DNA of 64,000 nucleotides from positions 1 through 64,000 of the IMG/VR virus record IMGVR_UViG_3300045118_000047. The stretch is one strand, 5' to 3'. Numbering within the stretch: the stretch's first letter is position 1; each line of letters starts with the position of its first letter. The DNA is from a virus. Below are positions 3,354 through 34,699 of the stretch, in pieces. The position numbers and the translations under genes were made by a program. Below the pieces are notes generated by a model. That model saw only the letters and a program-made list of their open reading frames with translations, searched no databases and was not told where the DNA came from.

Positions 3354-3356
3354 GTC

Positions 3357-7570: not shown

Positions 7571-8152
7571 ATGAGCGGAGATCAAGATTTCGACAAGGCC
7601 GACGCCGATGCTGGCGTGGCAGTAGCACTCCCGCCAGAGTCTCGCTCCGGGACGACAGCGTTGGCGGGGCGGTTGCCGTCAGACATTATTGCCTACCGGA
7701 AAAGTCTCGTCGAGAAGTACCACGCAGGAGCGCCCAGCTTCATCGAGCGGTTGCGCCGTGCCGGAAAGTCCGACATGGAATCGCTCTATGTATCGTTGAT
7801 GGATGAAGTCCTTGGGGAGACGGACCATCTCCTTGGAAACGAACTGATCGCCACGCAGAACGGAGAGCTTCGGGATGCTTCGGTCATATCGTTCAAACGG
7901 GCTGAAGTCTTGGAAAAGGCGCTCAGAGCCGTTCAGACAAAACAGCAGTTGAAGGGCAATGGGTTTGACGTTGATGCGCCTGAAATGATGGTGGTGTTTC
8001 GTTTCTTCTTGGCGAAGGTGAAGGAGACATTCGACAGGATCGGAGTGAATCCTGAGATACCGGATTTGTTCTTTCGCCGTTTTGGGGAAGTGACGGATAA
8101 CTGGCAGAAAGAACTCCGGGAACGTCTTGACGTGCTGGGGACTCAGAGGTGA
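7571..8152 (+). CDS. Hypothetical protein, terminase small-subunit candidate by position
   Basis: A 193-residue, mostly helical protein directly before the large terminase gene. The length, helical character and position fit a small terminase subunit, but no HTH or family motif was recognised, so this is only positional inference. The first 40 residues are Asp/Ala rich and probably disordered. It ends seven bases before the terminase start. Confidence 0.75.
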   Translation: MSGDQDFDKADADAGVAVALPPESRSGTTALAGRLPSDIIAYRKSLVEKYHAGAPSFIERLRRAGKSDMESLYVSLMDEVLGETDHLLGNELIATQNGELRDASVISFKRAEVLEKALRAVQTKQQLKGNGFDVDAPEMMVVFRFFLAKVKETFDRIGVNPEIPDLFFRRFGEVTDNWQKELRERLDVLGTQR

Positions 8153-8159
8153 AAAGCGA

Positions 8160-11100
8160 ATGCCGACAAACATTCTTGCTGAGATTTCCAAGGAGTTCAT
8201 CTCCGAGAGCAAGACTATCGCCGATGTCGTCACCTTCGTCGAGTCGTCTTGGGGCTTGGGGATCAAGCTCCTTCCCGTGCAACGCTTCATTTTGAAGTGT
8301 TTATACGGGTTGCCGCTGGACAATGGACCTAAGACCATTGATGTCCCCGATGTCGTCAATGAGCACACGCTTTATCGTTTCAACGAAAAAGAGTTTTTGG
8401 CATGGCTCTATGCAGAAGGTCGCTGCAATACGGACGAGACTGAAGGACGCATCTTCCAAGAAATCATTCTTGCCATAGGTCGTCGTGGAACCAAGTGTCG
8501 TGATCGGAATGACCTAATAGCAACCACAGACGGCACACTATCCTTTGGTGAACTTCTTGGAAGACTCAAGGCTCGGCAACGTATTGGGATTCAGACTTAT
8601 GATCCAAACACGCTCACGGCTTCGGTGTCTTATGATTTGAAGGCCCAAGACAATCGGAGTGAATGTTTTGAACTGACGACAGCACGGGGGATTTGTGAGA
8701 CATCTTCTTGGAACCATCCGTATTTGATTTGGAGACCGGAATGGGAGAAGCCGGATTGGGTTGAGATGTGTAGGCTCAGGGCTGGTGATAAGATAGCGAC
8801 ATCTAAGCAGGTTGGTCTTTTTGGCCAAGGGGGAGTGGGGGTCAATAAGGCCGCTCTATTGGGTCATCTCCAAGGCGATGGTGGGACTACTTGTTCTGTT
8901 GGATACACCACCAGTAGTCGGGTTATGCTTGCCGACCTTCGTCGGCTGATTTTGTGTGAGTTCCCTGAGTATGTGGTCAAGAAGAAGGGGAAATCTGCTT
9001 TTAGAATGGGATATGAAGTTGTCAAGGCATCTGGAAGGTTCAAACAAAATGGTAGTCAGAAGAACGAAGTGGGGGAGTGGCTGAAACGGGAGCATTGTTT
9101 TGGCAAGAAGGCTGTTGAAAAGGAAGTTCCTGCTTGTATTTTTCAGGGCAGTAAAGCGGAAGTAGCTGCCTTCTTGTCTCGCTTATTTGGGTGTGATGGA
9201 CATGCTAGTGTTGAGAACATAGTTCCCAAAGATCATGGTGGGGTTCCTAAGTCGCATGTGGGATATTGTTCGGCTTCAAAAAAGATGATTGATGGCGTTA
9301 GACATCTTCTTTTGAAGTTCGGGATACATGGGTGTGTTTGTCCGATAAAAGCCGTATGTGATGGGAAGACTTTCAATGCTTGGACATTACGCATAGTCAG
9401 GTCAGACAGTTTGGAGAAATTCAGAAATCAGATAAACATATTCTCGAAAGAGGACGCTGTTGATAGGGTACTACAAGCATCTCGTCTGAGAAGTTTGTCA
9501 AAGAGTGAGTTTGACTGTGTTCCTTCTGGTGTCTGGAATTACATTCGACGGGTAATGAAGGGTTCTTCGGCGAGATTGCGATGGCGATACGCTCCGAGTA
9601 AGTGGAAGGTGCGAGATTATGGTGAACATATCGGTGATGCTTTTCTCAGGGCTATTGGTTCGTCCGATGTGCTGTGGGACGAAGTGGAGTCTGTGAGATG
9701 CGTCGGAATGCGTGATACGGTGGATGTAGAAGTAGGTGGGACGCATATTATCGGTGGAGATATTGTGTCACACAATTCCACATTGGCATCTTGTGTCTCT
9801 AACTACGAGATGTACAAGCTGTTGAAGTATGGCGACCCGTCGAAGTATTACGGCTTCCCGTCGTTCACTACGCTGGCGATTTTGAATGTGGCTCCTACGG
9901 ACGAGCAGGCTGACATCGTCTTTGAGATGACGCAAAGTATGGCCATGCGTTGTCCTTTTATGAAGGATCGCTCGATCCACCAGACGATGACCTATTTTGA
10001 CCTTCAGACGGACCCGGACATGCAGGCCCACGGCAAACCAAGGGCGAGCTTGCTGTCGCTGGCTGGCGGATGTTCGTCCAACTCACTTCGTGGTCGTAAT
10101 GCCATCGTGGTCATCATGGATGAGATGGCGCACTTCATCGACAACAACGGTCGGTTTTCTGGATCGGAAGTGTACAAGGCTCTTACGCCGTCTATCGCTT
10201 CGTTCCGTCGCGATGGTAAGGTGGTCTGTATTTCATCGCCTTACGCGAAGTTCGGAAAGTTCTACGAGCGTTGGGATGAGTCTTTCCGGGAGCAGGAAAT
10301 CACACTGGCTTTCAAGATGTATAGCGCGATGGTGAATCCGACGATCCCGTCGGAAATCCTGCGGGCAGCTAGAAAGCGAGATCGTGTTGGGTTCATGTGC
10401 GAGTATGGTGGTGAGTTCTCCGACACGGTAACAGCGTGGATCGATGATGAAGCGGAGTTTCGTCGCTGTATTGTGAACACTCCTGCGCCTTCACGGGGAG
10501 TCCATGATGTGCAGTATTTCTTTGGAGTTGATTTGGGGTTCAAAAACGATGGGACTGGGCTTGCTATCGTCCATAGGGAGCCAGACAGCCGTATCATTCT
10601 GGATTACGCGAATGTTTGGTATTCTGGGTCGTCGGATGTCTGGGAGTTTAGCGACAGTATTTATCGGGCGTGCAACAAGTATGCTTCTTTGGAATTGTTG
10701 CGGATGGCGGACATTGTGGAAGAGATCAAGGAGCTTGTGAAGTGGTTCCCGCCGAAAGCGGGTGTATTCGACCAGCATAACGGTTACGCCTTGGCGGAAG
10801 CCTTTCAGGTCGAGCGTATGTCTCAGTTTCAGATGGAGAATTTTTCAGACACTATAAATGATGAAGTGTATCGTTTGGTCAAGAGATTGTATGCTGAGCA
10901 ATTTCTGACCTTGTTTGACCATCCTGTTTTGGTTAGGGAGATGCTGTCTCTTGAAGCGGAAAGGAAGTCCAGCAGCGTTACCGATGTAGAGCTTAGGAGC
11001 GAGAGCAGACATGGCAAGATGGTCGTCAGGCAACCCAATCGCCGTGGGGCGCATAACGACATCTCGGATGCTTTCTGTCGGGCGGTGTGGTTGTGCTACA

Positions 11101-11276
11101 ATACCTTTAAGGAAACTCCGCCGCGAGTGGTGACAGGGGTTGGCGGAAGGGTCCCGTCATTGTTTGGAAAGACAGAGACACAGGCTTCGTTTGTTGTGAA
11201 GCGAATGAAGCAGCACGGGGATCATCCGCGTGGCTTGTATCGGTCTCGGTATAAGGCGATGTTGTTGGGAAGGTAA
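8160..11276 (+). CDS. terL: Terminase large subunit with intein
   Basis: An open frame of 1038 codons; removing the intein (8496-9776) leaves a 611-residue terminase. The N-extein runs into the ATPase P-loop (IGRRGTK, then S after splicing). The C-extein has Walker B IVVIMDE (about 10,105) and an RNase H-like nuclease start FGVDLGFKNDGTG (about 10,519), with later acidic residues. The enzyme would cut concatemeric DNA and pump it into the prohead through the portal. ATG at 8160 was chosen because it restores a normal N-terminus. The upstream in-frame codons overlap the previous gene. Confidence 0.93.
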   Translation: MPTNILAEISKEFISESKTIADVVTFVESSWGLGIKLLPVQRFILKCLYGLPLDNGPKTIDVPDVVNEHTLYRFNEKEFLAWLYAEGRCNTDETEGRIFQEIILAIGRRGTKCRDRNDLIATTDGTLSFGELLGRLKARQRIGIQTYDPNTLTASVSYDLKAQDNRSECFELTTARGICETSSWNHPYLIWRPEWEKPDWVEMCRLRAGDKIATSKQVGLFGQGGVGVNKAALLGHLQGDGGTTCSVGYTTSSRVMLADLRRLILCEFPEYVVKKKGKSAFRMGYEVVKASGRFKQNGSQKNEVGEWLKREHCFGKKAVEKEVPACIFQGSKAEVAAFLSRLFGCDGHASVENIVPKDHGGVPKSHVGYCSASKKMIDGVRHLLLKFGIHGCVCPIKAVCDGKTFNAWTLRIVRSDSLEKFRNQINIFSKEDAVDRVLQASRLRSLSKSEFDCVPSGVWNYIRRVMKGSSARLRWRYAPSKWKVRDYGEHIGDAFLRAIGSSDVLWDEVESVRCVGMRDTVDVEVGGTHIIGGDIVSHNSTLASCVSNYEMYKLLKYGDPSKYYGFPSFTTLAILNVAPTDEQADIVFEMTQSMAMRCPFMKDRSIHQTMTYFDLQTDPDMQAHGKPRASLLSLAGGCSSNSLRGRNAIVVIMDEMAHFIDNNGRFSGSEVYKALTPSIASFRRDGKVVCISSPYAKFGKFYERWDESFREQEITLAFKMYSAMVNPTIPSEILRAARKRDRVGFMCEYGGEFSDTVTAWIDDEAEFRRCIVNTPAPSRGVHDVQYFFGVDLGFKNDGTGLAIVHREPDSRIILDYANVWYSGSSDVWEFSDSIYRACNKYASLELLRMADIVEEIKELVKWFPPKAGVFDQHNGYALAEAFQVERMSQFQMENFSDTINDEVYRLVKRLYAEQFLTLFDHPVLVREMLSLEAERKSSSVTDVELRSESRHGKMVVRQPNRRGAHNDISDAFCRAVWLCYNTFKETPPRVVTGVGGRVPSLFGKTETQASFVVKRMKQHGDHPRGLYRSRYKAMLLGR
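8496..9776 (+). mobile_element. Intein in the terminase P-loop, with LAGLIDADG-type endonuclease
   Basis: A 427-codon in-frame insertion. It begins with Cys (CRDRNDLIATTDG) and ends HIIGGDIVSHN, with Ser as the +1 residue, as expected for a self-splicing intein. A block-B-like motif (SSWNHPYLIW) is present. Two LAGLIDADG-like motifs (LLGHLQGDG and LSRLFGCDG) indicate a homing endonuclease. The insertion splits the Walker A motif between Lys and Ser, the classic intein target in terminases. Boundaries are inferred from splice-site residues and reconstruction of GRRGTKS. Confidence 0.92.
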
Positions 11277-11835: not shown

Positions 11836-14800
11836 ATGGCAAGGTCAAAAAAAGCATCTGGTGAACATTTTGACGGCGGCGTCAAGCGTCCCGGCGTTCA
11901 AACGGGTCCTGCGGACCCGGTACGGGCAAGGATTGCTCGCAGGGCGGTGGGGGCAGGCGGATTTGGGTTCGGCGGACATGGGCGTGAGCGTGAAGCTGGA
12001 ATGCTGATCGATACGTCTCAGGTTGCCGCTCCATACGCTACGGGATACAAGCTGGAAGCCTACCGGACTTCGTATGCTTACGGCCTGAGTGACCGCACAG
12101 GAGCTTACGACATCCCGACCTATTTCGTGATGATGAACGAGCAGAACGGCGGGATGATCTACTGGCCCGTCACACTGCATGAGAAGTATTCGTGGTATCG
12201 GTACTGGGCGCGGTCGGATGCCTATATCGGCAGGGCTTTGGAGTTGCTGTCAGACCTGCCGATGTCGAAGCTCACCTTGAATATGCCCAAGATGCCCAAG
12301 GGCAAGAAGGGATTAGCTCAGGAGATTTTGGACTTCTTCAACTATCAGCTTGAAGTTATCAATGCCTTTGAGCTGTGCCAGAGCATTCTCTGGGAGTCCA
12401 ACATGATCGGCAACTGCTTCAAGGGCGACACGATGATTGTTACATCGAAGGGTGTGTTGCCTATAGCGGAAGTCCGTGTTGGAGATGCTGTCCTTGATGC
12501 TTCTGGAAATTTTTCCAAGGTGACAAATATCGCCAGAAGGAGCGTGCAGGAAAGGCTGGTGTCGTTGCGGATTGCAAAGATGGCCGGTGTGGAGTTTATG
12601 CCTACAGCCGAACATCCTGTTTTTCTTCTCAAGGAAAACAGCAGAGAAGAAATGGTGAAGGCGGGTGATGTTCGTCGTGGAGATTGGATCGGAGTAGGAG
12701 CTACGGGAGAATCACGGGATGTGGATGTTGTTCCTTGGAAGGACGATCTTCTGGATCGGTATTTGCCGTCATTCTATACAAAGATCGAAAAGGCGGTTCG
12801 AGGATCGCAGGTTGATATTCGGTGTGGATATGATGTCCCGACCGGATTGAGCGTGGATGCTGAAAACCTTCGAGATGCTATCTTGGCGTGGATTTCCGAA
12901 TTGAAGGAGCCTACGACGGCTGATTGTTCGGAAGTTGCTAAAGCTATTGGCGTGGCTGATGCAGAACGAGTCAGATCGATTGCCTATGCCATGCGAAAGA
13001 ATGGAGAGATTAGGACCGAAAGGACCAGTAAGGGTGGGGTTGGAGGAAGCTCGCTGATTTGGTATCCGGGAGTATTTTCTGTGCCAACTGGTCATATTCG
13101 TAATATGGAGACCGTTTTTTCTCCTGTGGCAAGTCCGTCTATCTCTGTAGATGAGGACTTCTTATATCTTCTTGGTTATTGGATGGGAGACGGATGGCTG
13201 TGGAAATCCAAGAACAAATATGCCAAAGAGTTCGAGGGATGGGACATTTGCGTATCTTCCAAGGCTGTTGATCTTTTCCTTCGTGTAGATGCGGCGGCAA
13301 GAAGTGTTTTTGGAGAGGACGCGGTTGATAATGAGCCGTTTATAGACGGTGATATGTCGCATGTGGTGGTTCGAGACCCACTTTTGGCGGCATGGTGGAA
13401 CACCCAGTTTGGCAACGACTGTGAAAGCAAGAAGATTCCCGACTGGATTATGTCCTTGCCTGTGGAAAAAGCTATCTGGGTTTTGAGAGGAATGATTGAT
13501 AGTGATGGGTATGTGACTAAGACAGAATCGGGTGGTTGTCAGGCAGGCATGGTTGGGACGAATAAGGCTTTGATGCTTCAGTTGTTCCACTTGTCTCTGC
13601 GTTGTGGCATCCCTGCTTCCTTTGGGAAAACGGATAAGCGTAGTGGTCAACTTCCAAACGGTCAACGGATAGAAACTCGTGAGGTTTATACCGTATCTGT
13701 TGGCGTTAGGGATTACTATGAAATGCTGGTTGACGGATGTTCTAAGGCTCAAAAGGCTGATTGGTCTTCAGAAGAATCGGTCAATATCGCCTTCAAAGAA
13801 GTAGATGGTCGTTTCTATTATAGGGTTGATGGCGTAGATCGTCCGTTCCATTCTGGTTTCGTTTACAATTTCGAGGTTGATGGAAGTCACACCTATTGTG
13901 CAAACGGAGTACGCACGCACAACTGCTACATCTTCCACGAGTGGGACGAGAAGAAGAAGATGTGGTCCAGAGCGGTCATGCTTCCGCCGGAAGAAGTGTA
14001 CGTTTTCCAATACCCATTCACGGATAACAAACGGGTGGAATACCGACCGCAGCGTTTGATTCAGCTCATCAAGAGTGCCGGGGATGCGGAAGCCAGCGAA
14101 GTTCCAAGGGGAGACTATGACCGCTCGGACATGAATCGAAAGATTGTTGAAGGAGTCCCCAAGGAGCTAAGGACAATGGTGCAGAGGGAAGGTTGTATCG
14201 TCATGGATACAGACCCGATGACGGGTTCGTTTGTGCATCATATTGCCCGCAGGCGGTCGCCGTACATGGATATTGGAGCTTCCGTGTTGGAGCGCGTATT
14301 GGTGCCGATGCTTCAGAAAGAGCATTACCGGTATACCCAGTTGAGCTTGGCTAGTCGCAATATGACGCCGAAGAACTTGATTTCGGCACCGGGTCTGATG
14401 CCGGAAGAGTTGGATGATTTGCGGACGCAGGTGGACCTGTCCTACATGGACCCGGAGTATTCGGTTATCACCAACTATGAAATCCACTGGGAGCAGATTG
14501 GTCCCCAAGAGCGTTTCCTTGATTTCGGACGTGAATACGAACAGATCGAGAATCAGGTTTTCGCCGCGATGGGCGTGACGCGAGAGCTTTTGACGGGAGA
14601 AGGTCAGTTCTCAGGGACCAAGATCACCGTCGAAATTCTAAACACGATGTTCCTGCTGACTCGCGAAGTTCTGAAGAACTACATCGAGAAGCAGCTCTTC
14701 ATCCCAATCTGCGAAGCCCACGGCTGGTATGAAGAAGACAAGAACGGGGTCAAGAAATACTACTGTCCGCAGATTGGCTTCAACCGCTTAACGATTCGCG

Positions 14801-15291
14801 ACAATGCGGAAGTGTTTGATTCTCTGTTCCAGCTTTACCAGAAGGGCAGCTTGCCGGTGGACGTGATCTACGAGTTGTTCAACTTGAACCCCGAAGAGAT
14901 GCACGCCAAGTTGTTGGAAGATGCTTTTACGGTCAAGGACGCGACCTTCAACCGACTGTTGGAAGAAGTCAACACGGAAGTTGGCAGGGCCATTCCGCAA
15001 CAGACAGATGCCGTCGAGAAGGTGTCGAAGTATCTTGGTTTGAAGTTGGTCGGCAAGTCCGAAGAACAGGGTGGAGACGGTATGGGCGGCGACTTCCAAG
15101 AAGGTATGGACGAACAGCAAGGCCAGCAAGAACAGCAGGGTCAGCAAGAACAGCAGGGTCAGGAGCAAGGCCAAGAAGGAGACCCTGAATCTATTGCCAA
15201 GACTGTTGCTGAAAAACTACCGGCGGATGCGTCTCCAGAAGACATCAAGGATGCCGTGGAAGAAGCATCAGAGGCAGGAGAGAAAGCATGA
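11836..15291 (+). CDS. Portal protein with intein
   Basis: A 1151-codon frame; without the intein (12,415-13,923) the portal is 648 residues. Extein features fitting a portal: position after terminase, the core stretch around ILWESNMIGN joined to CYIFHEWDEKKK, a PPEEVYVF segment, and a late helix-rich region (SGTKITVEILNTMFLLTREV, then KQLFIPICEAHG). The C-terminal ~80 residues are Gln/Glu/Gly rich with GQQEQQ repeats and likely disordered. It would form the dodecameric ring for DNA entry and tail joining. ATG at 11,836 lies just after the preceding stop. Confidence 0.85.
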   Translation: MARSKKASGEHFDGGVKRPGVQTGPADPVRARIARRAVGAGGFGFGGHGREREAGMLIDTSQVAAPYATGYKLEAYRTSYAYGLSDRTGAYDIPTYFVMMNEQNGGMIYWPVTLHEKYSWYRYWARSDAYIGRALELLSDLPMSKLTLNMPKMPKGKKGLAQEILDFFNYQLEVINAFELCQSILWESNMIGNCFKGDTMIVTSKGVLPIAEVRVGDAVLDASGNFSKVTNIARRSVQERLVSLRIAKMAGVEFMPTAEHPVFLLKENSREEMVKAGDVRRGDWIGVGATGESRDVDVVPWKDDLLDRYLPSFYTKIEKAVRGSQVDIRCGYDVPTGLSVDAENLRDAILAWISELKEPTTADCSEVAKAIGVADAERVRSIAYAMRKNGEIRTERTSKGGVGGSSLIWYPGVFSVPTGHIRNMETVFSPVASPSISVDEDFLYLLGYWMGDGWLWKSKNKYAKEFEGWDICVSSKAVDLFLRVDAAARSVFGEDAVDNEPFIDGDMSHVVVRDPLLAAWWNTQFGNDCESKKIPDWIMSLPVEKAIWVLRGMIDSDGYVTKTESGGCQAGMVGTNKALMLQLFHLSLRCGIPASFGKTDKRSGQLPNGQRIETREVYTVSVGVRDYYEMLVDGCSKAQKADWSSEESVNIAFKEVDGRFYYRVDGVDRPFHSGFVYNFEVDGSHTYCANGVRTHNCYIFHEWDEKKKMWSRAVMLPPEEVYVFQYPFTDNKRVEYRPQRLIQLIKSAGDAEASEVPRGDYDRSDMNRKIVEGVPKELRTMVQREGCIVMDTDPMTGSFVHHIARRRSPYMDIGASVLERVLVPMLQKEHYRYTQLSLASRNMTPKNLISAPGLMPEELDDLRTQVDLSYMDPEYSVITNYEIHWEQIGPQERFLDFGREYEQIENQVFAAMGVTRELLTGEGQFSGTKITVEILNTMFLLTREVLKNYIEKQLFIPICEAHGWYEEDKNGVKKYYCPQIGFNRLTIRDNAEVFDSLFQLYQKGSLPVDVIYELFNLNPEEMHAKLLEDAFTVKDATFNRLLEEVNTEVGRAIPQQTDAVEKVSKYLGLKLVGKSEEQGGDGMGGDFQEGMDEQQGQQEQQGQQEQQGQEQGQEGDPESIAKTVAEKLPADASPEDIKDAVEEASEAGEKA
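12415..13923 (+). mobile_element. Intein in the portal protein, with LAGLIDADG-type endonuclease
   Basis: A 503-codon insertion starting CFKGDTMIVTSKG and ending SHTYCANGVRTHN, followed by Cys as the +1 residue. Block B is seen as TAEHPVFLL. LAGLIDADG motifs read LLGYWMGDG and LRGMIDSDG. Between the splicing block and the first LAGLIDADG motif lies an extra ~130-residue part with a winged-helix look (AKAIGVADAERVRSIAYAMR), unusual for a minimal intein and possibly a DNA-recognition domain. Boundaries are set by Cys1, His-Asn and Cys+1. Confidence 0.92.
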
Positions 15292-15569
15292 AAGAACTGG
15301 CAAGACAACTCTTGTTTGTGGCTAAGGATTTGGCTTCGAGAAGCCGAACGGCAGCGAACTTCACAGTGACGCATCAGCCACATGCGGCGAAACCTTACCA
15401 TGTTGAATGCGTAGTCATTCCGCCTTCTGCTTGGCACGAGTCACAATACCGAACCTACAGATGGGACGTTTCCTATGAAGAAGGGGATGCAAAGTGGAGT
15501 AGGTTTGCGGAAGCTGCCAGCCGAGCTGTTCGTACCGGTCGCAAACAGAAGTTTATAGGAGACTTGTGA
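15288..15569 (+). CDS. Small protein with N-terminal LLxVAKDLA tag
   Basis: A 93-residue protein whose ATG overlaps the portal stop (ATGA). The first 18 residues contain ARQLLFVAKDLAS, a good example of the tag shared by many proteins here. The rest is basic, with no family recognised. It overlaps the next gene by four bases (GTGA), so it is probably part of the head operon. Confidence 0.8.
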   Translation: MKELARQLLFVAKDLASRSRTAANFTVTHQPHAAKPYHVECVVIPPSAWHESQYRTYRWDVSYEEGDAKWSRFAEAASRAVRTGRKQKFIGDL

Positions 15570-18500
15570 GCAGATTGTTTCTCAGGCGAGCACAGCTTGA
15601 CGAAAAGGTCAAGCAGCAGATTAGGAAACGGGTGCAGGAGCTTCTAAAGGAGAAGCAAAATAATCCCGATCAGCCTGATTCTGCCCAGAATGATGCGCCT
15701 GAAAACGACCCAGACAGCGATGGGGCCGTTTACCTGTTTGATGCTTCCGATCATTCCCGCAGTATGGTTGCGCTGGAGTTTGATACGCGCAAGGAGTACG
15801 AGCTATACAAGAAAGAGCATGATGTTGATCCCGGCACCAAGATTAGAATCTTGGAAGAGAGCGGCGGCAAGTCTAAGCAACAGGACGAACCTTCGGAGAA
15901 GCGTGGTCCTGCGAAAGAAGAAGCTCCCAAAGACCGTAAGCCGGGGAAGAATGAGCCTGAAGGAAAGCCGGTCAAGAAGGAAGAACAGGGAAAGCCCGGC
16001 AAGGACAAGCAGGACGACAAGCAGCCAGACAAGGACAAGCCGGAGACTCAAGAGAAGAAGGAAGAGCGTCAGCCGGGAGAGCCTTTGCCCCATGAGCACC
16101 CTTCTCGTATCCCGGAAGGGATGCACCGGCAGGTTGCTATCAAGGACCAACTGATTGACGAGTTTGGGGCGGATGCGAAGAGTTGGAAGGTCCACAAGCT
16201 GTTTCCTTTCCAGATCACCAAGAATGTGACGATCAAGTTCCCGGATGGATCGGACAAAAAGTATGGCGATCTGACCCCGGATGAGAAAACCAGAGTGGAC
16301 AAAGCCGTATCGGAAGGGCTGGCAGCGTCCAAGGGTCTTGGCGACTATACCAGTGTCACGATGGCATCTATGCAGCACAACATGGCGACAAATCTGGCTC
16401 GCTATGACGATACCAGCGTGGAAGAAGTCAAAAACGAAAGTGCTGACCCTGTTTCTCCGTCCAACGCAGAGCAAACAAGCAAGTCACTGCGTGAAAACGG
16501 CAGGACGGTCCTGAAGAAGTACGGGAAGATGATGTCGAGTGTTTCCCGTCCAATGGCGGAGCGTTTTGTTGATGACATGGCGGACGCGGTCAGTGAAGGG
16601 ATCAAGGATGGTTCGCTTTCTGGCGTCCACCAGTCGGATTTGGACGAGTTTGTTCGCGAAGACGTAAAGAGAATGCTCCATCAGGAGACGGAGACTCGTC
16701 GCCGGGCATTAGGAGATCACGGTATTCGCCATGTAGCCGGGAATGCCCGAAACATGATGGAGATGTTTCGTGAACTTCAGAACGGCGGGACCAAGGTGAC
16801 AGGGAAGCAGAAGTTCATGGCGCTTTCGGCGATGGCCAACCATGACATAGGATATACGGTCGGGGAAGCCGCAACTGATCCGGCAAAAGGCAAGAAGCAC
16901 AAGCAATTCTCGAAGGACTTGGTGGATCAGGAGAAGGATCGCTACGACAAGATTTTCGGCCAAGAAGACGGCGGGAAGGTCCGAGACATCATCGCGACAC
17001 ATGACGATCCGAAGTTTGACTGGGAGCAGGACCCTGTTGGTTCGTGTGTTCGTTTGGCCGACAACATTTCGTTGTTTGGAGAAGATAAGGTGCAGGACTT
17101 GTTCCTGCGGTCGCCAAAGGCGGCGATGCTCTGCTGCAAACTCCACTTGGCGGCTCAGGCGAATCCGAGCGACAAGAAGCTCCAAGAAGAAATCAAGAGC
17201 CAACTGCATGAAGTGGTAGACGGCGGGGAGTTTGACGAAGCGGATCGTGAGCCGCTTCACAACCAGATCGACGAGATGACCGAAGGGAAGTTCAGCACTA
17301 CGACTGATATTCTTAGCCGGTACAGCGGGGAGCTGAAGGGCTTCAAGTACGATTCTGACAAGAAACTGATGCACGTCAATATGCAGTATTCTACGGAAGG
17401 TCAGGTGATAGACGGCCTGTTCGGAGACGAAGTGGCGTGCAGGCAGTTTGAGAAGATGACCAAGGACTTGGGTGGGAACCCGGTTCGGGGGAAGCGCGGG
17501 AACACTTTGTTTAAGAGTGCCGACGGGAAGCCCGCTTTCCAGCTCGATATTGACGGATTCGATACCGACAAGAATGATTCGCCTTATACCCCAGCGATGC
17601 GGGACTTCCAAAAGCAAACAGCCCGGTACGAGTTGCAGAGGGCTGTTCGGCGGATCAGCCCGCCGCCCCCGGCAAACGAGAGAGACTTTGAGAGAGCTAA
17701 GCGTGCGGTTGAGCCAGCGAAGGAGAAGTTTACCGAAGCGGAGTGGAAAAAACTCATGGAAGCCTTCGACGAAGGGAAGGGCGATCCCGTGGAACTGGCG
17801 AAAAAGCTGAATGCTTGGCCGCTGCTGCAATCCGAAATGGCATACTTGGAATCCAAGACTGCCAGTGTTTCCGCCGTCGTTCGTCGTATTATGTTGTCGT
17901 ATGTTGTAAATCGCGTGGCGGAGGATATGCTTGGGCTACGGGGCTTGAGCCGGGTTGCGTTTGATCTGGCGGAAGATATTGCCTATGAGCTTCAAACCCA
18001 AACGAAGACGACTACTAGAAGTGAAATGAAGCTCCGTCTAATACTGCTTGGACTCAAGGGTTCTTTGGCGGAAAAAATCTTGGACAAGTGGGAAGAGAAT
18101 GTGTCCTTGTGGCACCATTCAAGACAGTGGGTCGCAGAGTGGGTTCGGAGAATGATGGGACCCGCACTGGTGACAGCGGCAAGGGGAATGCAGGTCCGAC
18201 GGAAAGACACGGACACTATCCATGACACGGGCGGGGTTTCCAAGCATCGTCAGCGGGACCCGGAGATGAAGCCCCCGCGTGAAGACCTGAGTAACCCGCA
18301 CCGGACAAAGGATAAGCCATCGGGCAGTCACGATCCAGACACGGATGGCGATCCAGATTTGAAGTCTAGGAAAGCCGATGGTCCATCCGGGATTCGCAGG
18401 GTAACGTATTACACGGCGTATCCGGTGGAAACTTGTGATCGTTGCAGTGCCGCGATTCGGCAGGTCGCCTTGGTTGAGTGGAAGGATGGCACCAAGAAGA

Positions 18501-19339
18501 AGTTTGGCAGCGAGTGCATCAACAAGATTCTGGCTGGTGACAATTCGCTCAAGAGCCTTTTCAAGAAGAACGCGGTGTTGCTCAGGAAGTACCAGATGTG
18601 GCTGGAAGTCCTGAACCGTCCGGTAGACCGGATGCCCAAAGTTCAGGAATACTACAGCAGTGGTATCTATATGATCGGTGACGATGAAGGGCGAAACATC
18701 GTCGTGGAGCGTGGTTCTATTCTATTCCATCCAGATGTGGACTTGAATCGGAATGTTGTTTCCCGTTACCCGTTCGTAGACGAAGAGACGGCGGCAAGGT
18801 ATACGGGGAAGAAGACCTACGAGCAGTTCCGGGCGGAGCAGTTTAAGTCCATTGAAAAGGGGAAAGCCTTCTTACAGGGAGAGATCAATCATCTGGAGAG
18901 TTTCTTGGCAAAAATCGTTGAGAAGGGTCTCTTGAAGGCAGAGCAGGCTGGTATTCAGGCGGCAGCAGCGGCTCATCCGCTGGATGTGATAGTGAAGGGA
19001 ACCTTTGGGGATGTCCCGGAAGATAATTACTATCGTCGAGCGATGAACAGCCTGATCGAAGTGATGGCACAGGAGAAGCAGGTTTCAGAGAAAGACTTTG
19101 GGGGAATGGAAGAACTTCGTGCCACGGCGGAAGAATTGGTTCGGAGTATCAAGGGCGATACGATGATTCGGGTGTTCCAAAGTGTAGGGGCTAGGCCGGA
19201 AATGTGTGCGGAAGGTCTATATTTCGAGACTTTCATCAAGGACATCGGAAAACAAGCGTCAGATGGAGCCGGGTTGCGGGTAAAGTTGTTGTTGGCTCAG
19301 ACTCCGAGAACACTTCACGAAGCTGTAGAGCGGGGTTGA
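15566..19339 (+). CDS. Very long HD-domain protein with lysine-rich region and zinc-binding module
   Basis: A 1257-residue protein starting with GTG in a GTGA overlap. Residues about 70-95 hold an EFDTRKEYELYKKEHDVDP segment like the LDKYLKEHPDAD units of the gene at 26,377. Residues about 100-180 are Lys/Glu/Pro rich. An HD-type metal-phosphohydrolase domain spans about 380-520 (HGIRHVAGN, ANHDIGY, IIATHDD). About 780-800 is an amphipathic tag-like segment (SVSAVVRRIMLSYVV). Near residue 957 is a CDRCSAAIRQ ... CINKIL zinc-type module. Size and mosaic structure suggest a packaged or injected virion protein; the substrate of the HD domain is unknown. Confidence 0.8.
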   Translation: MSRLFLRRAQLDEKVKQQIRKRVQELLKEKQNNPDQPDSAQNDAPENDPDSDGAVYLFDASDHSRSMVALEFDTRKEYELYKKEHDVDPGTKIRILEESGGKSKQQDEPSEKRGPAKEEAPKDRKPGKNEPEGKPVKKEEQGKPGKDKQDDKQPDKDKPETQEKKEERQPGEPLPHEHPSRIPEGMHRQVAIKDQLIDEFGADAKSWKVHKLFPFQITKNVTIKFPDGSDKKYGDLTPDEKTRVDKAVSEGLAASKGLGDYTSVTMASMQHNMATNLARYDDTSVEEVKNESADPVSPSNAEQTSKSLRENGRTVLKKYGKMMSSVSRPMAERFVDDMADAVSEGIKDGSLSGVHQSDLDEFVREDVKRMLHQETETRRRALGDHGIRHVAGNARNMMEMFRELQNGGTKVTGKQKFMALSAMANHDIGYTVGEAATDPAKGKKHKQFSKDLVDQEKDRYDKIFGQEDGGKVRDIIATHDDPKFDWEQDPVGSCVRLADNISLFGEDKVQDLFLRSPKAAMLCCKLHLAAQANPSDKKLQEEIKSQLHEVVDGGEFDEADREPLHNQIDEMTEGKFSTTTDILSRYSGELKGFKYDSDKKLMHVNMQYSTEGQVIDGLFGDEVACRQFEKMTKDLGGNPVRGKRGNTLFKSADGKPAFQLDIDGFDTDKNDSPYTPAMRDFQKQTARYELQRAVRRISPPPPANERDFERAKRAVEPAKEKFTEAEWKKLMEAFDEGKGDPVELAKKLNAWPLLQSEMAYLESKTASVSAVVRRIMLSYVVNRVAEDMLGLRGLSRVAFDLAEDIAYELQTQTKTTTRSEMKLRLILLGLKGSLAEKILDKWEENVSLWHHSRQWVAEWVRRMMGPALVTAARGMQVRRKDTDTIHDTGGVSKHRQRDPEMKPPREDLSNPHRTKDKPSGSHDPDTDGDPDLKSRKADGPSGIRRVTYYTAYPVETCDRCSAAIRQVALVEWKDGTKKKFGSECINKILAGDNSLKSLFKKNAVLLRKYQMWLEVLNRPVDRMPKVQEYYSSGIYMIGDDEGRNIVVERGSILFHPDVDLNRNVVSRYPFVDEETAARYTGKKTYEQFRAEQFKSIEKGKAFLQGEINHLESFLAKIVEKGLLKAEQAGIQAAAAAHPLDVIVKGTFGDVPEDNYYRRAMNSLIEVMAQEKQVSEKDFGGMEELRATAEELVRSIKGDTMIRVFQSVGARPEMCAEGLYFETFIKDIGKQASDGAGLRVKLLLAQTPRTLHEAVERG

Positions 19340-20826
19340 TGATGGACTATGGCGCGAGCGCAAAGAGCTTGCTGGCCGTGGCGCGTGGGATTGTGGCGAC
19401 TTCTGCGGAGAAAGAAGTCGAGCGGTTCCTAAAGATCGTGCTGCGGGGAACGCCATTTGCCAACAAAACGCACGCTGTGGGTGGATACGTTCGTGACGAA
19501 GTGATGGGTTTGGAAGCCAAGGATTTGGACATTGTGGTGGAGATGAGAGGCGGAGCGGAAAAGCTGACCGTGATGCTCCATCAGATGTTTCCAGACCAGA
19601 TCACCACGCCGAGACAGATGGGGACTGGCTATCCCATCTGGCAGATTACATTCAGAGAAGACATCGAGCATGACGGGAAAGTGTATCAAACGGCGGGTGC
19701 GATCATTGAGTTTGTGGATACGCAGAAGGAGTCTTTCCCGGACCCTAAAAGCCGACAACGTATCGTTGAGCATGGAACGCTGAAGGAAGACATAGAGCGC
19801 CGGGACTTCACGGTTAACATGCTGTTGAAGGACTTGACTAACGGAGAGATTGTTGACCTGACGGGGACGAGTCTGAAAGACATTGAAGAAGGGGTGCTTC
19901 GGGGGCATCCCGGAGTGAACTTTGACAAGATACTACAGGATGATCCGCTTCGGATGATGCGGCTAGTTCGCTTTCAGGCAAAATACGGATGGGGTATTCC
20001 GGTGTCGGTGCTGAAGGCGGTTCGCCGGAATGCGCAACGTATCGAGATTGTGTCAGGGGAGCGGGTCAGGGACGAGTTGGTTAAGATCATGGAGCTGGGC
20101 AAACTGGCTCCGGCGATTCGATTGATGAAGGCAACGGGGTTGTTGCAATACGTGCTCCCCGAAGTGCAGGCGATGCAAGGGGTAGAGCATGAGTACACAA
20201 AGGGCCATCATCAGGAAGGGGACGTTCTCAGGCATACTTTACTGGTGCTGCAAGGGGCGAAGCCGGGGGTGGAAAGCCAGCTTGCGGCCTTACTGCATGA
20301 TGTAGGAAAACCTGATACGCAGGACATTATAGAAGGGACGATCAGGTTTCTTGGACATGAGAAGGTGTCCGGCGAAATCGCGGAAGCGATCCTGAGACGG
20401 TTGAAATTTGATTCGACGACGATTAGGAGGGTGCGGGCGATAGTGGAGTCACACATGCGTCCACACCATCTGGTGAGAAGTGATTCGGGTCCGAAGGCTT
20501 TGCGTCGGTTTATTCAGAAAGTGGGAATAGAACTGGTTGATGCGGTGCTGGACTTGGCGGAAGCGGATGAGCTGGGAACACTTCCACCGGCCAACATGGT
20601 GCCCGATCTGAGAAAAGAGATCGACGCGATCCGGGCACCGATAGAGAAGTCGGAAGATTTGCCCGTGGATGGCAAGGACGTGATGCGGGTTCTGGGAGTC
20701 GGGCCGGGGAAGCAGGTGGGCCAAGCCTTGCAGTTTTTGAAGGACAAAAAGTTTGACATGCTGCAACGGGGCCACGAGATGACGAAAGATGACGCCGAGC
20801 GGTTGTTGAAGGAGTTCGCTCTATGA
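19339..20826 (+). CDS. CCA-adding-type tRNA nucleotidyltransferase with HD domain
   Basis: A 495-residue protein; ATG overlaps the previous stop (TGATGATG). Residues about 35-60 contain the nucleotidyltransferase signature VGGYVRDEVMGLEAKDLDIVV (GG-x-VRD ... DLD), followed by the RRDFTVN segment and a head-neck region RMMRLVRFQAKYG typical of class II CCA-adding and poly(A) enzymes. Residues about 290-400 form an HD domain (HHQEGDVLRHT, LLHDVGK). It probably repairs or adds CCA ends on tRNA-like RNAs; the phage tRNAs and tmRNA at 52-55 kb already encode CCA. The N-terminus carries the window's tag (AKSLLAVARGIVAT), unusual for this enzyme. Confidence 0.88.
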   Translation: MMDYGASAKSLLAVARGIVATSAEKEVERFLKIVLRGTPFANKTHAVGGYVRDEVMGLEAKDLDIVVEMRGGAEKLTVMLHQMFPDQITTPRQMGTGYPIWQITFREDIEHDGKVYQTAGAIIEFVDTQKESFPDPKSRQRIVEHGTLKEDIERRDFTVNMLLKDLTNGEIVDLTGTSLKDIEEGVLRGHPGVNFDKILQDDPLRMMRLVRFQAKYGWGIPVSVLKAVRRNAQRIEIVSGERVRDELVKIMELGKLAPAIRLMKATGLLQYVLPEVQAMQGVEHEYTKGHHQEGDVLRHTLLVLQGAKPGVESQLAALLHDVGKPDTQDIIEGTIRFLGHEKVSGEIAEAILRRLKFDSTTIRRVRAIVESHMRPHHLVRSDSGPKALRRFIQKVGIELVDAVLDLAEADELGTLPPANMVPDLRKEIDAIRAPIEKSEDLPVDGKDVMRVLGVGPGKQVGQALQFLKDKKFDMLQRGHEMTKDDAERLLKEFAL

Positions 20827-26299: not shown

Positions 26300-26317
26300 G
26301 CTGCGTGACTCCCCACA

Positions 26318-26376: not shown

Positions 26377-27402
26377 ATGGGAAGGAACGGTAGGATTGTA
26401 GCTCGCATTCTTTCGGGGATGCGGGCTGCTGCCCCGTGGGAGTCTTGTTTTCAGGCTCAGGAAGACTTGGCGGAGAACGAAGCTATGGACGAACTACGTG
26501 GTCGAAAAGCGGTGACGATTACACCCATCGTTCCGGGCGGGCTGTATGCTTGCGGCGGAACATACTGGGTCAACGGCGAAGAGCAGTTTGCTTTCGTGCG
26601 TGGCGGCGGCAGGGTGTATGTTACCGACAGCGACAACGCTATGGACTTGTTTCGTTTTACCAAGCACCACTCGCATCTCTATGAAGTGGGTCTGCGTGGC
26701 GCTATCTCGCAAAGAGCAAGACTGGTGTACCGATCCGGCGAAGCTCATACCGTCGGTTCTCCTGAGCGTCTTGATCTGACTCCAGACTTGAAGGCGCAAC
26801 TGAACAAGGGACTGGCGAATTTTTGGTCTATTCGTCCAGCGGCTACGGCACATATTGCGATGGAGTTTCCTTCCCAAGAAGCTCTGGATAAGTATCTCAA
26901 GGAGCATCCTGATGCGGATCGGTCCAATCATCGAGTGGTGAAAGACAAGAAGGATGAAACTCCCGATGAAGTAGAAGAAAGACTCAAGAAGAAGATGGGT
27001 CCCGCCTACAAGCCGCAGGATCAAAGGATCAAGGAAGAGAAGGAAAAGTGGGACGCATATACTCAGGCATGGAACAAGGCTGGTAAGCCGAAGGACTTTC
27101 CTTCTATCCATGAGTGGACGAAACGGAGAAAGAGCATGACAACAACGGATCAACGAGTTGCGAGCGAGCTGTTGGCCGTGGCGAGAGACCTTGCTGCGAT
27201 GGACTTTCCTTCTCAAAAGGCTTTGGACAAGTATCTCAAGGAGCATCCTGATGCGGATCGCGGCAAGCATAAGGTCGTGAAGCAGACTGATCGGGACTAC
27301 GACTACACGCTTGAAAAGGATAACGACGTGTTCCAGCAGGATATGTCGGCTTCGAGAGTGGCGGCAGGGTTGCTTTCCTTGGCTCGTGCTCTGATGGAGT
27401 AA
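26377..27402 (+). CDS. Tagged multi-repeat protein with LDKYLKEHPDAD units
   Basis: A 341-residue protein; ATG at 26,377 follows AAAGGAGCGG. It carries tag-like segments at the N-terminus (GRIVARILSGM), near residue 258 (ASELLAVARDLAA) and at the C-terminus (VAAGLLSLARALME). Two copies of an FPSQ(E/K)ALDKYLKEHPDAD unit lie at about residues 165 and 272. The DNA at the second copy has an internal start (27,135) behind GGAGAAAGAGC, so a shorter tag-led product could also be made. Probably a packaged or prohead protein; function unknown. Confidence 0.75.
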   Translation: MGRNGRIVARILSGMRAAAPWESCFQAQEDLAENEAMDELRGRKAVTITPIVPGGLYACGGTYWVNGEEQFAFVRGGGRVYVTDSDNAMDLFRFTKHHSHLYEVGLRGAISQRARLVYRSGEAHTVGSPERLDLTPDLKAQLNKGLANFWSIRPAATAHIAMEFPSQEALDKYLKEHPDADRSNHRVVKDKKDETPDEVEERLKKKMGPAYKPQDQRIKEEKEKWDAYTQAWNKAGKPKDFPSIHEWTKRRKSMTTTDQRVASELLAVARDLAAMDFPSQKALDKYLKEHPDADRGKHKVVKQTDRDYDYTLEKDNDVFQQDMSASRVAAGLLSLARALME

Positions 27403-27403: not shown

Positions 27404-29518
27404 ATGGAACGCAGATGCACATCTGATGCTTGTCTCGCACACGCGGGCGCGAAGTCGGTCTCGTTGGACCTTCCGGTTGCGACCGTGCTGATGAATCCGC
27501 GCCAAGAGTGGGGCCGTTTGGCTTTTGGGGACGGACGGGTGCGAGTTGCGCGTGACATCAATGTGGACTGGAAATCGTATACCCCGGATAACTATCTGTT
27601 TTCACACTGCACCATTGTCGCATCCGTTGCCACAGAAGACAATGGTTACTCTATTGTTCCGGCCTGCTCCGATTTGGTGAATAACAACGGCAATGCTTGG
27701 ACCAATGAAGTATTGCTGGCGACGTTTAGAACCTTTGTTGGCGGAGAGAACTATCTTGAACACGTGCAGGTCCCGGAGCTGTCGAAGGGCAAGATTCTGG
27801 ATGCTGTGCTTCGTCCGTTGACCTATCAGGACAAGGAAGGTCGGACGGCGGACATCTACTACTGCTTTACAGGGGATGCCAAAGTGTTGATGGGAGACGG
27901 GACAGAGAAGGACATTCAAGATGTTGTGGCTGGTGATCTTGTATTTTCTGGAGATGGTAATGTTCAGGAAGTTCTCGCCGTTTCGAGAAAGTATGCTTCC
28001 GACATTGTCAGAATGAAGATTCGTGGTGATTTAGATGTTGTCGGATGCACTACTGGGCATCGTATTTGGGCGAAAGAGAATATCGAAGACGAATGGGAGA
28101 TCGTAGAGGCGGGATCAGTGGGAAAGGATTGGTGGGTTTTTCAACCTAAGCCAATCTGTCGTGGCGATATTGAAATCAGTAAGGACATGGCGTGGTTGGT
28201 TGGATTTTACGCTGCTGAAGGTTCTATCGTCGAGAGGGCGGATAAGGATGGGATCAGGCATCCCAAGGTAACACAGTTCACCTGTCACCAAGACGAAGAG
28301 GCGGTCGTTCGACTGGCTATAGATATAGTCTTGAGTGAGATTGGACCATACAAGGTTCCATTTTTCACTCAGAGATACTCTGGTGAAAAGTTGATGAGGG
28401 GTATTAGAGGAAGTGTTGATAGTCGAAAGACTTCCGAGTTCGGAGTCAATATACGGGTCGGACACGAGACTCTTGCCGAGATCATGGTCTCTCTTTGTGG
28501 CAGGGGATCGACAACCAAGAAGTTTCATCCAGACATTCTGACGGGATGGAATGATGAGGCGAAGTTGGGTTTTCTGGCGGGCTTGATCGATGGGGATGGA
28601 TATGCAAGGAGAGATGTGGTTGGATTCAAGTCTTCCAGTAACGACATGGTGAGGGGTGTCGAGTTTTTGCTGGCATCTCTTGGCATGGCATATTCAACCA
28701 CGGGAGACTGGCATAGTGGACCGTATAGCGGGTGTGCGGTCGTAGAACTCGATTGTCAGTCGAGTGATCGTCTTCGGACTTATCTGCGAATCAAGAACAC
28801 CTTTGATGTGTGGTCTGGTGAATTGGGGTTGAACAACAGAGCATCGATTGCGTGTGTGGGCGGGATCGCTCGCAGAGTTGCTTCTGTAGAGAAAGTTGCA
28901 GATACGGTTGAGGTTCCAGTTTACAACATCGAAGTTGCTTCGGATCACAGCTATATCGTTTCTGGAATCAAGGTGAAAAATTGCGACATCTTGGTTGCTA
29001 CAAACCGGAAGTATAAGCGACTGGTGGGCAAGATCGCTTCGGGTGAACTCACAACGATGAGCATGGGTTGTTTGGCAGACTGGGTAACTTGCTCTCGCTG
29101 TGGGGTAGTGCTTGGTGACAATCAGCCGAACTGTCACCACTTGGACAACGAACTACTGGCTCATTTCAGGGACAAGAAGGGCGTCGAGCGGGTTGTGGCT
29201 GAGTTGTGTGGCCGTTCGATTATGAAGGGCGGCAAGCGAGTAGGCGACGGCAAGAGCGTGCGCTTCATAGAAGCGTCATGGGTTGAGAAACCGGCGTTCT
29301 ATGGCGCGGTTTTGAATCACTACGTGAGCGAGATGCCGGTGGAAGCGGCAAGGATTCTTGAGTTCCCGACAGATCGGCTACAGCTTGCCGTGGAAGACAT
29401 CTTCAAGCTGCGTGTGGCTGACAAGGCGGGAATGATGGTGTTGCGAGTGGCGCAGGCTGAAATCGCCCGTCGGATGGCTTTTGAGCGTGTGGGGAGAATC
29501 GCAAGGAGATTGATATGA
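27404..29518 (+). CDS. Prohead maturation protease with intein
   Basis: A 704-codon frame; without the intein (27,863-28,981) the protein is 331 residues. The extein contains LEHVQVPELSKGKILDAVL, with a candidate catalytic His, and after the intein IASGELTTMSMGC, with a candidate catalytic Ser, then CSRCG ... CHHL, an embedded zinc-like cluster, and ASWVEKPAFYGAV, which resembles the late PA motif of prohead proteases. It lies upstream of the scaffold candidates and capsid gene, as expected. It would cleave scaffold, capsid and packaged proteins. It overlaps the next gene by four bases. Confidence 0.78.
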   Translation: MERRCTSDACLAHAGAKSVSLDLPVATVLMNPRQEWGRLAFGDGRVRVARDINVDWKSYTPDNYLFSHCTIVASVATEDNGYSIVPACSDLVNNNGNAWTNEVLLATFRTFVGGENYLEHVQVPELSKGKILDAVLRPLTYQDKEGRTADIYYCFTGDAKVLMGDGTEKDIQDVVAGDLVFSGDGNVQEVLAVSRKYASDIVRMKIRGDLDVVGCTTGHRIWAKENIEDEWEIVEAGSVGKDWWVFQPKPICRGDIEISKDMAWLVGFYAAEGSIVERADKDGIRHPKVTQFTCHQDEEAVVRLAIDIVLSEIGPYKVPFFTQRYSGEKLMRGIRGSVDSRKTSEFGVNIRVGHETLAEIMVSLCGRGSTTKKFHPDILTGWNDEAKLGFLAGLIDGDGYARRDVVGFKSSSNDMVRGVEFLLASLGMAYSTTGDWHSGPYSGCAVVELDCQSSDRLRTYLRIKNTFDVWSGELGLNNRASIACVGGIARRVASVEKVADTVEVPVYNIEVASDHSYIVSGIKVKNCDILVATNRKYKRLVGKIASGELTTMSMGCLADWVTCSRCGVVLGDNQPNCHHLDNELLAHFRDKKGVERVVAELCGRSIMKGGKRVGDGKSVRFIEASWVEKPAFYGAVLNHYVSEMPVEAARILEFPTDRLQLAVEDIFKLRVADKAGMMVLRVAQAEIARRMAFERVGRIARRLI
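27863..28981 (+). mobile_element. Intein in the prohead protease, with LAGLIDADG-type endonuclease
   Basis: A 373-codon insertion starting CFTGDAKVLMGDG and ending DHSYIVSGIKVKN with Cys as the +1 residue. Block B appears as CTTGHRIW. LAGLIDADG motifs read LVGFYAAEG and LAGLIDGDG. The residue before the terminal Asn is Lys instead of the usual His, a known but less common variant that can slow Asn cyclisation. Splicing joins YY to CDILVAT. Confidence 0.9.
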
Positions 29519-29859
29519 ACGACAAAGCAGCAGCTCGTGAGTTGCTGGCAGCGGCAAAGGAAATGATGGGGGCCGGGAGCTTGTTTTCAGGCTATGCAAG
29601 AACGGCTATTGGTGCCCATGCCGAAATGTTGCAGGCTATTGAGCGGATCGAAAACCACATTCACTATCGGCTGTATGGTACAGGATACAGGGATGAGATT
29701 ACAGGCGATCCGGTCCTGACACCTACGGAAACAGTTAAGGCGAAGATCATCATGCAGCACATTCAGCGGATAAAGAAGGTGATCGATCAGGTGTATCCAG
29801 ATATTCGAGAGTTGAGGGGTCACGCCGAATCACTGGACACGTTCATGCACTTTAGCTGA
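29515..29859 (+). CDS. Small tagged hypothetical protein
   Basis: A 114-residue helical protein in an ATGA overlap with the protease gene. The N-terminus AARELLAAAKEMMG is a clear tag copy. The remainder is helical. Directly adjacent to the protease, it could be an early substrate or packaged core protein (inference). Confidence 0.78.
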   Translation: MNDKAAARELLAAAKEMMGAGSLFSGYARTAIGAHAEMLQAIERIENHIHYRLYGTGYRDEITGDPVLTPTETVKAKIIMQHIQRIKKVIDQVYPDIRELRGHAESLDTFMHFS

Positions 29860-31262: not shown

Positions 31263-31562
31263 ATGAGCAGGGAGCGCATCACAAGTCGAGAAGCGGATTC
31301 TACGGGCATTCTTGCGGCCATTAGCGGGCTGGAGAAGTCCATCGAAGCCGCTGATGACACTGACTTGGTCAAGTGGGCTGACGAGTTGGCCAAGGAAGAA
31401 AAGCAGGTTGTCAACAAGAGCAGGCCCGCAGGCCCGGCGCAGTTGAAGGATAACGGCGATCAGAATGCCAAGGCCAACAAGAACTGGCCCGTGTCCGAAG
31501 CGGACAAACTCAAGGTTGCCAAGAAGCTCGTGGCTTTGGCTAAGGACCTGCTGGCGGACTGA
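31263..31562 (+). CDS. Small protein with C-terminal LLxVAKDL-type tag
   Basis: A 99-residue charged protein behind GGAGGGAAACC. Unusually its tag is at the C-terminus (VAKKLVALAKDLLAD). It has its own promoter-like motif upstream and another directly after it. Function unknown; a head-core component is possible. Confidence 0.75.
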   Translation: MSRERITSREADSTGILAAISGLEKSIEAADDTDLVKWADELAKEEKQVVNKSRPAGPAQLKDNGDQNAKANKNWPVSEADKLKVAKKLVALAKDLLAD

Positions 31563-33838: not shown

Positions 33839-34699
33839 ATGGCCGTTGACAACCAAACCAAGCAAGAGATCATCAGTCAGCATATTCGCACCGCCGCAGG
33901 GCGTCAGCGTTTGGCTGCAAGCATGATTCAGCCCTTGCGCCGTCGCAGGGACTACATGTCGGTAGGTCGTAAGGCGTTCTACGTGGAAGCACTCCCGGAT
34001 GGCGCTCTGCCGATCTACGACAAGGACCCGAACATCACGGCTTACGTCGTGGGTGAAGAGGGTGAAAACATCGTGGCCGTCGCGAAGCCGAAGCGGGTAC
34101 TGTTCCCGTTGTTCGAGATCGCGTCGAACCCCGAAATTCAACTGACCGAGATCAAGCAGCGTCGTTTCGACCTGATTGAGCGTTCGGTGGACTTGGGTAA
34201 GGCCGAGATTCAGGCGGAAGAAGATCGCAAGGTCTTCGCCGTCATGGATGCTCTGTCGGCTGACCCGACGAATCCGAACCCGGCGATCCCGGTCACGGGC
34301 AACCTGACCGCCAACGCATTGGCCGATGCCTTTGCAAACATCGAGCGCACCGACGTTCGCGTCGCGACTGTGTTCTTGAATGCGAAGGACTACGCCGACC
34401 TGCGTAAGTGGGATCGGGACACGCTCGACATCGAGACGCAGGCTATCCTGCTCAAGACCGGTCTGATGGCTACGCTCTGGGGAGCTAAGCTCATGGTCAG
34501 CCGTATCGTGCCGGAAGGCACCGTGTACGTCTGCGGTGAAGCCGAGTTCTTCGGTCGCGTTCCTGTCAGGACGGAACTGACGGTCATCTCTGCGGATGAT
34601 CCGAAGAACCGTCTGATCGGTTTCTCGATCTTCGAGCAACTGGGCATTGGGGCGTACAACCCCTTCGCTCTGCAAGTGCTCCAGATCACCCGCGTCTAA
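33839..34699 (+). CDS. Major capsid protein, HK97-type
   Basis: A 286-residue protein with a strong ribosome site (AGGAGGGACTAGC) followed by a strong terminator. Order and motifs fit small HK97-fold capsid proteins: N-arm with GRQRLAASMIQPLRRRRDY, a beta segment VLFPLFEIASNPEIQL, a spine helix DRKVFAVMDALSA, P-domain strands, and a late loop GTVYVCGEAEFFGRVPVR. No separate delta domain is obvious, consistent with separate scaffold genes. Confidence 0.85.
   Translation: MAVDNQTKQEIISQHIRTAAGRQRLAASMIQPLRRRRDYMSVGRKAFYVEALPDGALPIYDKDPNITAYVVGEEGENIVAVAKPKRVLFPLFEIASNPEIQLTEIKQRRFDLIERSVDLGKAEIQAEEDRKVFAVMDALSADPTNPNPAIPVTGNLTANALADAFANIERTDVRVATVFLNAKDYADLRKWDRDTLDIETQAILLKTGLMATLWGAKLMVSRIVPEGTVYVCGEAEFFGRVPVRTELTVISADDPKNRLIGFSIFEQLGIGAYNPFALQVLQITRV

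Follow-up and report, generated by a model that had tools for sequence, protein, structure and literature searches.

A tRNA nucleotidyltransferase of the CCA-adding type, encoded among the head genes of a virus, carries at its N-terminus a short tag that it shares with about ten other proteins of the same DNA. Phage T4 directs proteins to its prohead core by means of a short N-terminal capsid-targeting sequence (CTS), which the capsid protease gp21 cuts off (PMC9958956, PMC5694885). We propose, with a probability of roughly 0.55, that the tag described here is a prohead-targeting propeptide resembling the T4 CTS, and that the enzyme is packaged with the DNA, delivered to the host and restores tRNA 3′ ends. 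The window, i.e. the whole stretch of DNA analyzed, comprises 64,000 nucleotides of a 70,778-bp IMG/VR virus record; start codons of its ORFs were picked by rule, and its relevant features are collected in Table 1.

Table 1. Head genes, tagged proteins, enzyme domains and tRNA genes in the window
Feature	Position	Strand	Basis
Terminase large subunit, intein-like insert	8127..11276	+	Pfam, PHROGs
Portal protein, intein	11836..15291	+	Pfam, PHROGs
Small tagged protein MKELARQLLFVAKDLASRS, directly 3′ of portal gene	15288..15569	+	tag pattern
1257-aa protein, HD-like signature (HGIRHV...NHD) by eye	15566..19339	+	reading of sequence
Class II CCA-adding-type tRNA nucleotidyltransferase, HD domain, N-terminal tag	19339..20826	+	495 aa
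N-terminal tag MMDYGASAKSLLAVARGIVA, putative propeptide, class A	19339..19398	+	pattern, orthologue N-termini, AF2
Nucleotidyltransferase head domain; GG..RD, DLD, RRDFT	19474..19902	+	PF01743, residues 46-188
RNA-binding domain PolyA_pol_RNAbd	20008..20169	+	Pfam
HD domain core; HD at residues 319-320 in A3 numbering	20275..20469	+	Pfam and A3 alignment
Tagged N-terminus MTTTDQRVASELLAVARDLAAMD within ORF 26305-27402	27136..27402	+	tag pattern
Head maturation protease, intein-like insert; candidate tag-cleaving enzyme	27404..29518	+	phrog_18299 8.8e-9
Tagged protein MNDKAAARELLAAAKEMMGA	29515..29859	+	tag pattern
Small protein, tag-like helix C-terminal (LKVAKKLVALAKDLLAD), just 5′ of scaffold-like genes	31263..31562	+	tag pattern
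Major capsid protein	33839..34699	+	phrog_2522 5.4e-53
Tagged protein MRREALGVLSVAKDLLAGS	36177..37229	+	tag pattern
Tagged protein MNDRIASQELVGVARSLVADS	48412..48663	+	tag pattern
Tagged S-adenosylmethionine-lyase-like protein	48950..49723	+	PF23780 2.6e-6; tag pattern
Tagged protein MNKMKAARDLLDVARSLAAA	49720..50049	+	tag pattern
tRNA-Met, CCA encoded	52653..52729	+	gene sequence
tRNA-Met, CCA encoded	54609..54685	+	gene sequence
Tagged protein VNDKLVANELVSVARDLAAM	57531..57764	+	tag pattern
Tagged protein MSRLAQELLRVAKELIAED, runs past window end	63668..64000	+	tag pattern

By family and fold, the product of ORF 19339-20826 is a genuine CCA-type tRNA 3′-end enzyme with a predicted activity, as the initial annotation had recognized. 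Pfam identified PF01743 (PolyA_pol, 3.5e-17), PF12627 (PolyA_pol_RNAbd, 3.5e-16) and the HD domain PF01966 (6.6e-9), and PHROGs returned phrog_2244, tRNA nucleotidyltransferase (3.9e-56). The best NCBIfam model was that of the actinobacterial CCA enzyme, TIGR02692 (4.5e-62); because its score of 210 bits lies below the curated equivalog cut-off of 438.8, the protein is not filed as a TIGR02692 equivalog. An AF2 model built from 13 orthologues reached a pLDDT of 86.8, and its top Foldseek matches were solved tRNA-processing/CCA-adding enzymes (E about 1e-14). The head-domain motifs GG..RD, DxD and RRDFT are all kept across orthologues (A3 alignment) and, with the RNA-binding domain and the CCA-enzyme fold, place the window protein among class II CCA enzymes. 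The ATG at 19339 overlaps the stop codon of the upstream gene (TGATGATGG), and a further ATG of the same ORF lies at 19342.

CCA and poly(A) enzymes share a fold, and PcnB models also match the ORF, so that the protein might instead tail other RNAs in the manner of a poly(A) polymerase. It might also be kept mainly for RNA binding or for its HD phosphohydrolase, for example to remove 3′ phosphates left by toxins or other 3′-end modifications; a phage small alarmone hydrolase is known to clear the toxSAS modification from tRNA 3′ CCA ends (PMC11559606). We regard these alternatives as very improbable given that CCA models outscore PcnB and that no head-domain motif has been lost. Gp22 of fHe-Kpn01, considered as a possible instance of the same enzyme, is a 182-aa nucleotidyltransferase-like toxic protein and was set aside.

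According to the AF2 model, the first ~20 residues of the enzyme stand outside its fold, pLDDT falling below 50 solely in model residues 1-16 (counted from the second Met). This segment, of which AKSLLAVARGIVAT represents enzyme residues 8-21, looks by eye like an amphipathic helix. The tag pattern [LMIFV][LVMIFA].[VALMI]A[KR].[LMIAV].[AGS] has 12 matches on the + strand of the window and 0 on the − strand, mostly 5-12 aa past a start codon, with one C-terminal match (31263-31562). In a gene set selected independently of the motif, the pattern was found at 8 of 81 N-termini of the window, compared to 0.08 expected by shuffling (maximum 2), and in 1 of 564 internal windows. Since the pattern was derived from this window's own tags, its count here is descriptive, and the counts in other contigs constitute the test: 15 of 316 N-termini in the relatives G001 and G002 (0.24 by shuffling) and 15 of 259 in G003-G005 and G008 (0.23 by shuffling). 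The class A phages are mutual relatives and not independent samples. A MAFFT alignment of 62 mostly unrelated proteins from several phages, picked for having the tag, gave a consensus only at the N-terminus, MxxxxxAxELxxxAxxLxA. Among orthologues of the enzyme the tag is the most variable part, and its pattern is nonetheless kept. A short N-terminal extension common to unrelated proteins of one phage, a feature of cargo with a T4-type CTS, is thus present, and the initial annotation was right that the enzyme carries a tag at its N-terminus. A strict second motif (RxA.RVA type) matched once in the window and was dropped.

The placement of the gene in a head-gene cluster also held up: terminase, portal, head protease and major capsid protein genes surround it, and it sits between the portal and head-protease genes. 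The terminase, portal and head protease genes alike contain intein or homing-endonuclease-like inserts. For the 1257-aa protein encoded immediately upstream of the enzyme, no Pfam or PHROG family and no usable structure match was obtained; in L025, the protein encoded between the portal and the CCA enzyme (2181-5960) has a Zeta-toxin/AAA kinase domain (PF06414, 1.8e-10). Most tagged proteins could not be assigned a function from family matches. The S-adenosylmethionine-lyase-like protein matched PF23780 with 27.8 bits, slightly below the cut-off of 28; SAM lyase is a phage anti-restriction enzyme. Tagged proteins with family matches in other phages are SprT-like (G002), topoisomerase IB (G006) and Zeta-type kinases (G006, G011). 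Among the tagged partners are protein types that are known, or have been proposed, to be injected as effectors. The small head-module protein encoded before the scaffold-like genes, in which a tag-like helix is C-terminal, also occurs in L019 (about 17370-17669) and L003 (14712-15020), and this helix may be a partner or a mimic of the N-terminal tags.

About 20 orthologues of the enzyme were found in phages, mostly at 45-75% identity and on IMG/VR contigs of up to 412 kb. Most of them have an N-terminal extension, which differs from phage to phage. The class A tag (ELLxVARxLxA-like) is found on the enzyme of G000-G005 and on many of their other proteins, and the class B tag (VVxRYLxA-like) on the enzyme of G006, G011 and G012. 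The class B tag of G006 occurs at 10 of 547 N-termini of this ~400-kb phage and is almost absent from class A phages, and the class B set of G011 is small; class A tags, conversely, recur across many N-termini of class A phages and fall close to background in those of class B. The enzyme tag is of the RIASRV type in G007 and LSKRA in L145/L146. An extension that belonged to the enzyme should not follow the phage, and in several phages it does. The correspondence is weak in G009 and G010, whose enzyme extensions match few other proteins of their own phage, and the enzymes of L152/L154 have longer, unrelated extensions. Reading of the N-termini revealed no such tag on the enzyme in L156 or in the bacterial-contig relatives L158 and L159. 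Untagged distant relatives start with MQIYLVGG in Erwinia phage Hena1 and MKIYLVGG in Vibrio phage D181.

The portal gene lies upstream of the enzyme gene, with one or few genes between, in G000-G003, G005, G008, L137 and L151; in G007 and G010 the enzyme gene does not adjoin head genes. Several RIASRV-tagged proteins of G007 (331 kb; L076, L080, L082) have an ART-like YHGT motif, and the set also includes L028 (5461-7473). The ART label rests on this motif, because only one of the YHGT proteins of G007 matched PARP, weakly and below cut-off (E 0.0005). The G007 CCA enzyme is itself in frame after a YHVT-type ART-like domain. In G003:C1, the complete gene is preceded by a short extra match (18679-18822) that covers enzyme positions 1-48, and an HNH-like ORF separates the two.

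CCA enzymes are common among phages, with 349 records, and are usually understood to act in tRNA maturation or repair (PMC7824862), and some relatives of the window phage are rich in tRNA genes. The protein could accordingly be a phage CCA enzyme of the usual kind, whose task during infection is the maturation of phage and host tRNAs and whose N-terminal helix is incidental. We consider this interpretation improbable. Both tRNA genes of the window already encode CCA and therefore need no CCA enzyme. G013, which has 40 tRNA genes, encodes a second, untagged CCA-type ORF elsewhere in its sequence. Tunturi_5, whose capsid protein belongs to the same family, encodes an untagged enzyme, gp279, that is only 32% identical and lies in a tRNA-processing region outside the head module. 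Finally, an incidental helix is difficult to reconcile with a tag that switches along with the phage. ARAGORN tmRNA genes were noted in L019 (510-917), L118 (9577-9944) and L065 (19546-19933).

G013 (318 kb) provides a different arrangement of the tagged enzyme: a 1504-aa polyprotein (L171, 1180-5691) consisting of SET (20-96), topoisomerase IB (139-340) and CCA enzyme (~651-1064) domains. The motif [LI]S[KR]RA occurs in it at six sites, at residues 111, 365, 622, 1104, 1259 and 1443, i.e. between SET and topoisomerase IB, after topoisomerase IB, just before and just after the CCA domain, and at two positions beyond; four of the six bound the three domains. Exact LSKRA is found 4 times in the contig (0.00 expected by shuffling), three times in the polyprotein ORF and once N-terminally in an adjacent protein, all in a single neighbourhood. 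In LR756501 (735 kb), the CCA enzyme is a distant relative contained in a larger fusion that starts with VITKFKLFE; two adjacent ORFs and another three within about 100 kb have a similar start, making this shared N-terminus a possible further tag type. Repeated MIxKFKLFE N-termini in this phage (L126, L133, L134) resemble T4-type [LI]xE processing sites. Polyvalent proteins combine several effector domains and are believed to be injected along with the DNA; the text describing them does not name a CCA enzyme (Iyer et al. 2017, PMC5512222). Several effector domains per polypeptide are present in L145 and L126, and the G013 polyprotein fits the polyvalent type; the window protein differs in having one enzyme unit.

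A cleaved propeptide, similar in size to the tag, is established for the capsid family of the window phage. The capsid protein of Bacillus phage G, 37% identical to that of the window and of the same family, is encoded as 282 aa and is 255 aa long when mature, as determined by N-terminal sequencing (PMC5646251), which places the cut after residue 27, at GRVALA|QAM. The corresponding point of the window capsid protein reads GRQRLA|ASM, and GRxxLA is kept in relatives. The first ~26 residues of the window capsid protein are the counterpart of the propeptide that phage G gp27 loses. Tags end in [KR]xLxA (class A) or R[YF]LxA (class B), sharing P5 R/K and P1 A with the capsid site. Since P2 and P3 differ, the fit of tags and capsid to one protease is not proof; from the sequences, the tag cleavage site appears compatible with, and not identical to, the capsid site. 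In the head cluster, [KR]xA[SA] sites number 19 vs 4.5 expected; this excess was a post hoc observation and was not used as evidence. Myrna-type phages, like phage G, have a related major capsid protein; no relative of it was found in a search of bacterial genomes. Phage G also resembles the window phage in having its own type of N-terminal tag, likewise present on ART-like proteins (gp53 and gp141; L125, L135), and differs in the sequence of that tag, RLxKKA. Our literature search found no virion proteomics for phage G or Tunturi_5.

These data bear on a further possibility, namely that the tag is a real shared signal for another site, such as a membrane, the replication compartment or an assembly factor, and that the enzyme acts in the infected cell. 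The amphipathic appearance of the helix would suit such a role, and many tagged proteins are encoded outside the head module, for example in a cluster of small tagged ORFs in L010. This explanation nevertheless seems unlikely to us. The enzyme and other tagged genes are within the head module, where the tag helix also ends a small protein beside scaffold-like genes; tag ends fit protease-like sites, and the G013 motif recurs at domain borders. Moreover, replication and nucleotide enzymes in a 50-kb stretch of phage G do not have the RLxKKA-type tag.

Under the propeptide reading, the enzyme would be made together with the head proteins and would dock in the prohead core by way of its tag. Removal of the tag would fall to the head protease, probably with a cut after [KR]-x-L-x-A, which we infer to mean cleavage after A20 in the window enzyme. 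Enclosed with the DNA and then injected, the enzyme could restore or complete tRNA 3′ CCA ends in the new host, and phage translation would thereby survive tRNA turnover or tRNA-attacking defences. The damage to be mended is a guess; besides toxSAS modification, nucleases too shorten tRNA ends, and the analysis brought up no partner that cleaves tRNA. Of the packaged tRNA-end repair suggested by the initial annotation, packaging and delivery find partial support in a phage-specific tag outside the fold, the head-module site in close relatives, effector-type partners and a propeptide in the capsid family, while the tRNA damage itself is conjecture.

The same annotation went too far in calling this a new kind of packaged anti-defence, because T4 already provides examples of anti-defence proteins that are tagged and packaged; its IPI and IPIII function inside the host, where IPI counters a restriction system (PMC9391042). 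As with the T4 internal proteins and Alt, we propose protease processing and a head location for unrelated cargo bearing a short N-terminal propeptide, and anti-defence or host-takeover roles, known for T4, may apply here. In contrast, the tag has no sequence relation to the T4 CTS, with [KR]xLxA proposed instead of cleavage of the xTE/[LI]xE type, and the putatively packaged cargo is a tRNA enzyme. Because the T4 motif [LI]xE is absent at the tag end, we describe the tag as working like, and not as being, a T4-type CTS. The enzyme belongs to the same family as phage CCA-adding enzymes of phrog_2244 and of jumbo phage groups 2 and 3, for which tRNA 3′-end restoration is likewise proposed (PMC7824862), and is distinguished by its tag from those of the Erwinia and Vibrio phages and from Tunturi_5 gp279. 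Phage CCA enzymes and packaged tagged effectors are thus each known already. In the literature that we searched, phage CCA-adding enzymes were not found described as virion cargo, and no packaged CCA enzyme was reported.

More generally, and with somewhat less than even confidence, lineage-specific N-terminal propeptides of phages with phage-G-like capsids may constitute a packaging code, such that reading the tags would list the injected proteins, with the CCA enzyme as a widespread cargo that rescues tRNA ends as infection starts. If this is true, a finished tRNA-end repair activity would enter the cell alongside the genome and precede all phage gene expression, a timing suited to countering tRNA-targeting systems that act fast. 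The tags would also supply a packaging signal for phage-G-type heads, and the set of injected proteins could be deduced from sequence for many large phages that have not been cultured.
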